From NCBI RefSeq assembly GCF_000022485.1, contig NC_012623.1, forward strand, positions 1,364,001 to 1,428,000: 64,000 nt of DNA, read 5' to 3'. Shown here in pieces: positions 19,700 through 22,103 of the stretch. A program made the translations under genes and the position numbers. Each line of letters starts with the position of its first letter. The stretch's first letter is position 1. This DNA is from Sulfolobus islandicus Y.N.15.51. Its GTDB lineage: Archaea > Thermoproteota > Thermoprotei_A > Sulfolobales > Sulfolobaceae. A model generated the notes under the pieces. The model made no database searches. It saw only the letters and a program-made list of their open reading frames with translations, and was not told the DNA's origin.

Positions 19700-20361
19700 G
19701 GAAAAGAATAGAAAAGTACATTAAAGGAATGGATGAACGATTAAAGAATATCGATAGTGCCAACAATAAGGTGGTAGAATTAGCTAGATTATATACTGAG
19801 GATTCTAAATATTATTTAGAGAAAGGTGATTACGTAACCGCATTAGTCGATATTGTTTATGCTGAGGGTTTGTTGGATGCGAAGGAGATTTATGAGAATA
19901 ATGATCCTAAATCTAATGTATCGAAAAAAGTATTTGTCGCGGGTACTTTTGACATATTGCATCCTGGACATATAGAATTCTTGAAGGAGGCATCGAAATA
20001 TGGAAGAGTTTACGTGACTGTGGCTAGGGATTCCAATTCAGAGAGAATTAAAGGTAGAAAGCCTATTAATGATGAGCAAACTAGATTAGAAATTATTAAG
20101 AGTGTAAGATACGTTTTTGATGCAATATTAGGCGATCAAGAAGATTTTCTAAAAAGTGTGGAAAGAATAAATCCCGATATAATTTTCCTAGGTCCAGACC
20201 AGAGAGTAGATGAAACTAAGTTTCTTGAGGAATTAAAAAAACGAGGCTTAAGTCCTCAAATAATTAGATTAAACGAGAGAATAAGGAAATGGCCTCATTC
20301 AAGTACAACAGATATAATAAATGAAATTAAAAAGAGGTATTGTAAATTAGAACAACGTTAA
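19681..20361 (+). CDS. ribL: FAD synthetase-like cytidylyltransferase (RibL) with N-terminal DUF357
   Basis: Residues about 1-75 form a helical DUF357-type domain; residues from about 82 are a nucleotidyltransferase with [20 protein letters not shown] (HxGH active site) and the later RxxxxSSTxI motif ([11 protein letters not shown]). The archaeal family transfers AMP to FMN to make FAD. The neighbours fit: the CTP-dependent riboflavin kinase gene converges on it with a 4-base overlap. The start ATG is inside dphB. The DUF357 fusion is unusual compared with the single-domain methanogen enzyme; its role is not known. Confidence 0.88.
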
Positions 20362-20996
20362 ACATAAACCTCTATTGTTACCTCATTGCCATCTTTTAAA
20401 TTCAGTTTTTCCCTGAGATGAAATGGAGAAATTACCTCTATTACGCTCTTTGGATGTATAGTTCTTAAGGGAATTACTACTGCAGCCGGTGTTAGTTTAT
20501 TAATTGAGGCAGGATATAATCTAACTGCGCCTAATACTCTATCCTTTTGCTTATATTCGGGCACTATTAGAGAAGGTGATGAGTCTAAGAGTAATCTATT
20601 TTCTAGAGATAGTTTATCGTATATTATAATATTTAGCGTACCTGGATAAGGGTCAAATCCCATTACTTTGTTTATATGGTTTTTATAGTAATCCATTGAT
20701 AGAAATATTTTGCCTTCCCCAAGCCCAGATACGATATTTCCTTTTATCTCAAGACTATGAAGTGACAATATGGCATCTTTTAAGCTACTTAAACATGAAC
20801 TCAAAAATCTTTCTCCCTCTTCTGTTAATCTTATTATCTCTCCTTCTTTAGATATTATTCTTACTATCAGTTTATCATCCTCTAATTCTTTTAATTTACG
20901 AGATATTGATTGCTGTGAGAAATTGAGCATCTTAGCTAGCTCTGACTGCGTTACGTATGATTTGCCCTTTGAATAGGCTATAATTTTAGCTAATAT
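20358..20996 (-). CDS. ribK: CTP-dependent riboflavin kinase with N-terminal winged helix (RibK)
   Basis: Makes FMN from riboflavin and CTP. The C-terminal kinase domain shows [29 protein letters not shown] and [21 protein letters not shown]. The N-terminal winged helix reads [20 protein letters not shown], then [19 protein letters not shown]. The first ATG (20930) falls inside this domain and would delete its first helix and half of the second. The frame is open up to the taw1 stop at 21018 with no ATG, GTG or TTG; candidates are ATA at 20996 or ATT at 20984. The coordinate given assumes ATA; 20930 is the conventional choice. The 3' end overlaps ribL. Confidence 0.8.
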
Positions 20997-21017
20997 ACAA
21001 GCGTTTGACTCATCTTT

Positions 21018-22103
21018 TCAAGTTGATCCCTCTGTACAACCTTGTTCTGCTTCCTTATATTCTCCACTCATATCATCTTCTATATCAATAGTAGACCAAT
21101 CCCATTTCTCATTCCACGCATTTCCAATCTTAATTGGCTTATCCAATTTACTTAGAAGAACTATTCTACTGGGCACGTGCTCTGATAAGATTTTATATCC
21201 AGTGTATTGTGCTAAGGTTTTTGCGAATTCTCTTATCTCTTTATGTTTTGGCATCGCATCTCTACTTAATCTATAGGTTGATGGTCCAACGTGCATATAA
21301 GCTTTAATTTCTATATATGTGGGCATTGCAATTTCCATTAACTTCGCAAATTCTCTTGCATCTTGCTCACTCATATTGTATCCCTTTATCATTGTAAATC
21401 TTATCACAGTTGGAGAACTAAAACTAGGTAAGATCTCTAAAGTCTTCATAACTAATTGCCAAGAATTAGCAACTACTGGTCTATTAATCATCTTGTGTTT
21501 TATCTCATTCGGAGCTTGTAGAGATACAAATAACTGAGTAGGCTCTTCTTCTAAGCTTGCTAATATATCTGGTCTTACACCACTTGTTACAAGAAAGGTT
21601 GTCATTCCTCTTTTATGATATTCCTTTATAAGATCACCAAGTTTCTCATAAAGTGTAGGTTCTCCAGTCAAACTTATTGCAACATGCGCGGGTCTCATCG
21701 CATCTTTTACCTTTTGGATGTTAACATCATTTCTTCCTAGATATCCAGAAACGGCCTTCTTATGTTCTTCTATACTCCTCTCTACAATATATTCAGGATC
21801 ATCATATGCGGGCATTTTCGTATCGTCCCACTCTAGTCCAACATCCTCTGGTTCTAATCTCCAACAATGTACGCATCTAAACCAGCACCAGGCTGCAGTT
21901 GGAGTCATTTGTACGCATCTATGACTCTCAATTCCGTAGAATTTGCCCTTATAGCAAGATCTATTAGCTACAAGAGCAGAATGAGTCCAATGACATTTTT
22001 TATATACACTGTGAGTGCCAATGATGTGGTATTTCTCTTTTTGTAACTCTTTAAATATCTCACTTACTGTATCGATCCTTAAATTACTTTGCATATTGTA
22101 CAT
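21018..22103 (-). CDS. taw1: tRNA 4-demethylwyosine synthase Taw1 (TYW1), radical SAM
   Basis: Forms the tricyclic base of wyosine in tRNA-Phe. The radical SAM cluster is C73-x3-C77-x2-C80 (CWFRCVHC). A second cluster is held by C37, C50 and C63, spaced 13 and 13 as in known Taw1. Later motifs include SLTGEPTLY near residue 143 and [12 protein letters not shown] near 170. At 361 residues it lacks the flavodoxin domain of eukaryotic TYW1, as usual in archaea. The stop TGA is followed in the same frame by the riboflavin kinase coding sequence. Confidence 0.96.

Follow-up and report, generated by a model that had tools for sequence, protein, structure and literature searches.

A conserved taw1–ribK junction in Sulfolobaceae that may combine restart at UUG with an immediate +1 slip

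Introduction

In the genes for bacterial release factor 2 (prfB) and eukaryotic antizyme, a functional protein is produced when the tRNA in the ribosomal P site slips forward by one base, in prfB with an upstream Shine–Dalgarno (SD)-like stimulator. In both, the slip follows an elongated reading frame and takes place at a slow stop codon. In other gene pairs the stop and start codons share bases (NUGA), with an SD sequence inside the upstream gene. Examples are termination–reinitiation at overlapping ATGA pairs in archaea and bacteria (PMC6728339) and the A4-dependent correction at NUGA starts of Escherichia coli (PMC9841429). In these pairs the overlapping start also sets the frame of the downstream gene.

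Archaeal recoding has been reviewed with a short list of cases: readthrough for selenocysteine and pyrrolysine only, and one −1 frameshift, in fucA1 of Saccharolobus solfataricus (PMC8211752, PMC8037382), which occurs on A-AAA-AAT between two overlapping open reading frames (ORFs) within a gene. To these, PMC5009743 adds HSTV-2, a virus of archaea in which a +1 frameshift is likely, and the magnesium chelatase of methanogens, for which −1 frameshifting is probable. No +1 frameshifting in archaeal cellular genes is reported in these reviews (PMC8211752, PMC8037382, PMC5009743), and archaeal +1 frameshifting in general is little documented.

Here we analyze the junction of taw1 and ribK in a window of 64,000 nucleotides from Sulfolobus islandicus Y.N.15.51. 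The ribK product has the same domains as RbkR, described as a bifunctional regulator and riboflavin kinase (TA1064, as cited in PMC8305020; structures 3cta and 5trd). The start of RbkR is not known to be unusual, in contrast to that of ribK. The arrangement that we propose resembles prfB and antizyme in the +1 slip of a P-site tRNA, but the slip would take place on AAAA as the second codon, immediately after ribosomes restart at a codon overlapping the stop. Like fucA1, ribK would be a recoded cellular gene of the Sulfolobaceae, but in the +1 direction; and it shares with the ATGA and NUGA pairs the overlapping stop and start, whereas the ribK frame lies one base further on than that of the start.

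Results

The taw1 and ribK reading frames

On the minus strand of the window, taw1 (4-demethylwyosine synthase; 21018..22103) ends at a TGA at 21020-21018. Its product matches TYW1/Taw1 (TIGR03972, 434 bits against a cut-off of 318) and consists of a radical SAM domain (PF04055) and a Wyosine_form domain (PF08608); Pfam and NCBIfam give these two only, in agreement with the original prediction that Taw1 lacks a flavodoxin domain. The same frame is open again directly after the TGA, from AAA (21017-21015) to TAA (20360-20358), and encodes RibK (20358..21017, minus strand; 219 codons and the TAA), an RbkR-type chain in which an N-terminal winged helix is joined to a CTP-dependent riboflavin kinase domain (PF01982, E=5.7e-39). 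A match to PRK14165 runs along the length of RibK, yet scores 176.7 bits, below the curated cut-off of 279. From its sequence, RibK is predicted to make the vitamin-B2 cofactor and to switch the riboflavin pathway. In a search by protein family, each of the 31 genomes examined contained ribK; a homology search of the genome contigs with RibK returned only unrelated winged-helix genes.

The sequence bears out the earlier observation that the two genes occupy one frame broken by a single TGA and that the first 29 codons of ribK (20931..21017, minus strand) contain no in-frame ATG, GTG or TTG. That these codons complete the winged helix is likewise upheld. The solved structure of a riboflavin kinase, 3cta/5trd, can be aligned to codons 12-30 (3cta, E=1.9e-35; in this alignment query residue 1 is ribK codon 2), so that the winged helix of the known structure extends over the segment before the first ATG, and a structural model of RibK (mean pLDDT 89.9) places helices at 5-16 and 24-31 there. 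In this confident model, the 29 codons are predicted to form the first helix of the winged-helix domain and the greater part of the second. The first in-frame ATG, codon 30 (20928..20930, minus strand), is not conserved; it is present in two of seven congeners, with TTG, TTA or ATA in the others. This internal ATG is the likely choice of annotation software, and a protein starting there would lack helix 1 and almost the whole of helix 2 in its DNA-binding domain.

At the junction itself, a TTG (21019..21021, minus strand) overlaps the taw1 stop as TTGA, one base off the ribK frame, and is followed by a run of four A (21015..21018), after which G (21014) is always next. A tRNA that reads the first AAA and moves forward by one base to the overlapping AAA would be in the frame of ribK; read simply as sequence, one A fewer would give an ordinary in-frame start, TTG AAA GAT. 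Seven nucleotides 5′ of the TTG lies GAGG (21029..21032, minus strand), which doubles as the Taw1 codons E-G, so its SD role is only putative. An ATG at GATGAGTC, right after the motif, was considered as the ribK start and rejected, as it is out of frame and found in g1 only (genera are labeled g1 to g11 here).

Conservation across Sulfolobaceae

NTG-AAAA-G stands at the junction in 19 species of six Sulfolobaceae genera (g1, g4, g6, g7, g8 and g9), as TTGAAAAG in 18 species and as CTGAAAAG in one; the arrangement is present in all seven species examined of the genus of the window and in five further genera. These 19 species have no common in-frame start ahead of the winged helix. Their next in-frame starts lie anywhere from codon 12 to codon 82, many of them inside or past that domain. 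The proposed start codon is TTG in 18 and CTG in one, and the AAAA, which permits perfect AAA-to-AAA re-pairing, is invariant, while the bases flanking NTG-AAAA-G and the residues they encode vary between species. The base before the TGA is T in 18 of the 19 despite a changing codon (ACT, ATT, AGT, AAT). Except in g8, GAGG precedes the TTG by 7 nt, and hence the slip codon by 10 nt, in every species without the ATG start. Conservation of the TGA in relatives, which the original prediction had put forward as a check, is complete: the stop is TGA in 19 of 19 species across six genera, never TAA or TAG, in a fixed 3′ context of AAAG. Since 19 species in six genera have the odd junction in common, it is neither local nor due to chance or sequencing error, and a sequence correction that would create an upstream ATG, which the original prediction had allowed for, is excluded.

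In genera g2, g3, g5, g10 and g11, ribK begins with an ordinary ATG; in g3 and in the majority of g10 this codon shares bases with the taw1 stop (ATGA). The proposed start gives an N-terminal length in the same range as in these genera. In a tree of RibK and Taw1, with weak basal support, the odd start falls in three separate clades, which would correspond either to an ancestral state with about three losses or to three independent origins.

Genus g8, represented by two genomes, is a special case. Here taw1 ends two codons earlier and the TGAAAAG motif is retained (GGT TGA AGC TGA AAA and GAG TGA AAT TGA AAA), so that two TGAs rather than a single in-frame stop separate taw1 from ribK in both species. 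The earlier stop is overlapped by TTG (L027) or GTG (L028) in the pre-slip frame, whose readings are TTG AAG CTG AAA A|GAC and GTG AAA TTG AAA A|GAC, respectively. Both would be read as M-K-L-K before the slip, and the differences amount to choice of start codon and synonymous changes; the argument thus consists of two genomes and two synonymous changes. Lysine codons in these g8 genes are 18% AAA and 82% AAG, and AAA is nevertheless kept at the slip site. The occurrence of CTG rather than TTG at the slip-site start in L027 counts against our proposal.

Selection on the 5′ segment and nucleotide constraint

Over ribK codons 1-28, pN/pS is 0.16 in g1 (seven species) and 0.18 in g4. These values indicate that the segment is under purifying selection and is translated as protein, in g1 for codons 8-28, where pN/pS is 0.135. 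In g1 codons 1-7 there is hardly any change at any site, and pN is close to pS, so the pN/pS test does not support translation of these seven.

Synonymous change is depressed at the same place. Across the last 14 taw1 codons and the first 7 ribK codons, pS in g1 is 0.147 against 0.551 overall (P<5e-5; none of 20,000 permutations was as low), and together with the profile this delimits a stretch of about 100 nt (20982..21080, minus strand). The corresponding rates in g4 are 0.194 and 0.545 (P=0.0016). No fall is seen at the junction in g10, the best-sampled of the genera that use ATG (0.877 versus 0.869), and little at the control junction DUF655/ksgA of the same g1 species (0.439 versus 0.554, P=0.11); g3, which also uses ATG (three species), has a milder dip, confined to taw1 codons (P=0.014). 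With the dip present in g1 and g4 and absent in g10, the odd start tends, on these rates, to be accompanied by a cis element some 100 nt long. The constraint reaches further into taw1 than would be needed for an SD sequence, and the upstream part of the stretch may be a promoter (with TATA-like GAATATAAGG), a coupling signal or another element. A search for a stimulatory RNA structure at the junction found none (z-scores 0.6 to 0.9).

The junction in its genomic context and other unusual starts

We sampled 1.66 Mb of the genome, in which 411 coding ORFs have TGA as their stop. AAAG comes directly after the TGA in five of them, and in a single case, that of ribK, the next element is a coding ORF in the same frame that lacks a start. 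GAGG-N4-10-TGAAAAG is not enriched genome-wide (20 occurrences against 30 for the reversed control) and is therefore not a general signal. Other genes, too, lack a standard start, but the ribK arrangement is unique within the 1.66 Mb sample.

ATA, GTA, ATT or CTG seems to serve as the start codon of further genes in the genus. The gene ksgA/Dim1 (L060, about 11500, minus strand) was considered as a second case, with TTGAAAAG before a start-less frame. We dropped it as support because the motif there codes for residues L/I-E-K in the product of the preceding gene and because GTA, GTG or ATA stands at the usual start position: GTA in six congeners, GTG in one and ATA in g3 (L060 about 11491, minus strand; L091-L097, L110, L114). 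The start of ksgA and the stop of the gene before it overlap. Candidates in L077 and L053 were also rejected as ribK-like cases, ATA starts being likely instead. The one in L053 (about 19513-19511, minus strand) is a SUMT/cobA-like gene with ATA after GAGGTGA in this species; at about the same place its congeners (L128-L134) have ATG in two, ATA in two more and GTG in one, and another has ACG at this position and, two codons before it, an ATG. The one in L077 (about 14534, plus strand; L121-L127) is a gene of about 177 codons with ATA at the likely start in seven of seven species of the genus, preceded by a conserved AGAGGCGNGAGAAGT-like leader. A cas1-like gene (L166, about 11871, minus strand; N-terminus KTLIISEYGAYLSVKKG) has an apparent ATT start after GAGGTGAGGGGAA. 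Finally, a nadM-like gene (RGLYPGRFQPFHLGHL; L077, about 2338, plus strand) has no in-frame ATG at its start, which would be either CTG after GGTGATGAGAT or an ATG, with the frame broken after ATG AGA TCT GTC.

Discussion

A conserved sequence, in-frame translation of the 5′ segment, the absence of a standard start and nucleotide constraint are the observations that any account of ribK expression has to accommodate. On balance, and with modest confidence, we favor the idea that ribK is made by termination–reinitiation with an immediate +1 slip. Ribosomes would end taw1 at the UGA, held by the upstream GAGG, and restart 7 nt past it on the UUG that overlaps the stop (UUGA). The second codon would be AAA, and its tRNA-Lys would move one base onto the overlapping AAA of the AAAA run. 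Ribosomes that do not shift would read UUG AAA AGN and terminate no more than 0-6 codons later; those that slip would enter the RibK frame (M-K-D-E-S-N-A-C…) and make the whole winged helix and kinase. In a variant of this mechanism, the initiator tRNA would take UUGA as a four-base start and set the ribK frame directly, giving the same protein. We infer UUG use, the slip and the coupling alike from sequence. Of the features looked for in +1 frameshifting, the junction has a conserved slippery sequence and a start codon in the pre-slip frame, and of those looked for in a termination–reinitiation pair it has a stop/start overlap and an SD-like GAGG inside the upstream gene. The shared frame of taw1 and ribK would follow, because the four-nucleotide NTGA overlap shifts the start back by one frame and the slip shifts it forward again. 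A start of this kind followed by a slip would also account for the T before the TGA, the invariant AAAA and an N-terminal length like that of species with ATG. Further points in its favor are the recurrence of NTG-AAAA-G in three clades, the spacing of the GAGG, the M-K-L-K reading and the retained AAA of g8, and the suppressed synonymous change at the junction in g1 and g4. Of the routes named in the original prediction (an ATA or ATT start, reinitiation or readthrough), reinitiation is thus the best supported, in a new form in which the UUG overlaps the stop one base off frame and the AAAA after it would allow the start to slip by +1.

The shared frame without a start, the exclusive use of TGA in 19 of 19 species and the fixed AAAG context would also be expected if a fraction of ribosomes read through the UGA, producing a Taw1–RibK fusion with a whole winged helix. 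We consider this unlikely because in g8 taw1 stops earlier and the motif stays in place, so that two UGAs (TGA AGC TGA and TGA AAT TGA) would have to be read; moreover, five genera begin ribK at ATG and make the proteins separately, so the fusion is not needed, and readthrough leaves the T before the TGA in 18 of 19 species unexplained while its codon changes. Readthrough in archaea is, besides, established for selenocysteine and pyrrolysine only (PMC8037382). The fusion that the original prediction had entertained is thus disfavored. Its suggestion of an ATA or ATT start belongs with a wider idea, in-frame initiation after the TGA at a near-cognate ATA, ATT or CTG, which gains some credit from the apparent use of ATA in the SUMT-like gene and in another gene in seven species, and of GTA or ATA in ksgA, and from ATA or ATT at ribK codon 8 in g1. 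No near-cognate codon, however, occupies a shared position across the six genera, the codon 8 ATA sits more than 30 nt from the GAGG, and neither NTGAAAAG nor the suppression of synonymous change upstream would be explained, which makes initiation of this kind distinctly improbable.

The remaining explanations are more remote. The RNA polymerase could drop one A of the AAAA, so that the transcript would carry an in-frame UUG AAA GAU; the loss of a single A would yield a perfect start, and the motif would look as it does under ribosomal slippage. Four A are short for polymerase slippage, and we regard this as very improbable. We give slightly less credence still to the possibility that the 5′ codons are untranslated and that RibK starts internally, with the junction acting, within taw1, as the promoter or operator of ribK. 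The TATA-like GAATATAAGG about 35 nt before the TTG, inside the g1 synonymous dip, would suit such a role, but pN/pS of 0.16 over codons 1-28 speaks against it, as do the later in-frame starts, scattered from codon 12 to codon 82 and in many species within or beyond the winged helix, and a promoter by itself supplies no start codon. Against reinitiation with a +1 slip itself, in turn, counts the one adjacent stop/start pair tested in S. solfataricus, for which no coupling was found (PMC6728339). Other points against it are the absence of +1 frameshifting in archaeal cellular genes from the reviews cited above, the negative search for a stimulatory RNA structure, the coding role of GAGG in taw1, a constrained stretch longer on its upstream side than an SD needs, the similar pN and pS of codons 1-7 in g1, and the milder dip in g3.

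If reinitiation with an immediate slip is correct, ribK would represent conserved +1 recoding of a cellular gene in archaea, with the recoding step at initiation. The organisms concerned, Sulfolobus-type archaea that live in hot acid, are open to genetics and cell-free translation. More tentatively, the UUGA-AAA start could be ancient and family-wide, an initiation and +1 slip in one step that was present in the ancestor of most Sulfolobaceae. It would have persisted for a large part of the family's history, possibly because it limits an FMN-making regulator, and plain ATG would have replaced it in several lineages. Reinitiation with a slip would also mean that, in the genera that have the odd start, ribK is likely to be annotated too short, with the consequence that the DNA-binding domain is lost from the predicted protein and a regulator of riboflavin metabolism is missed.
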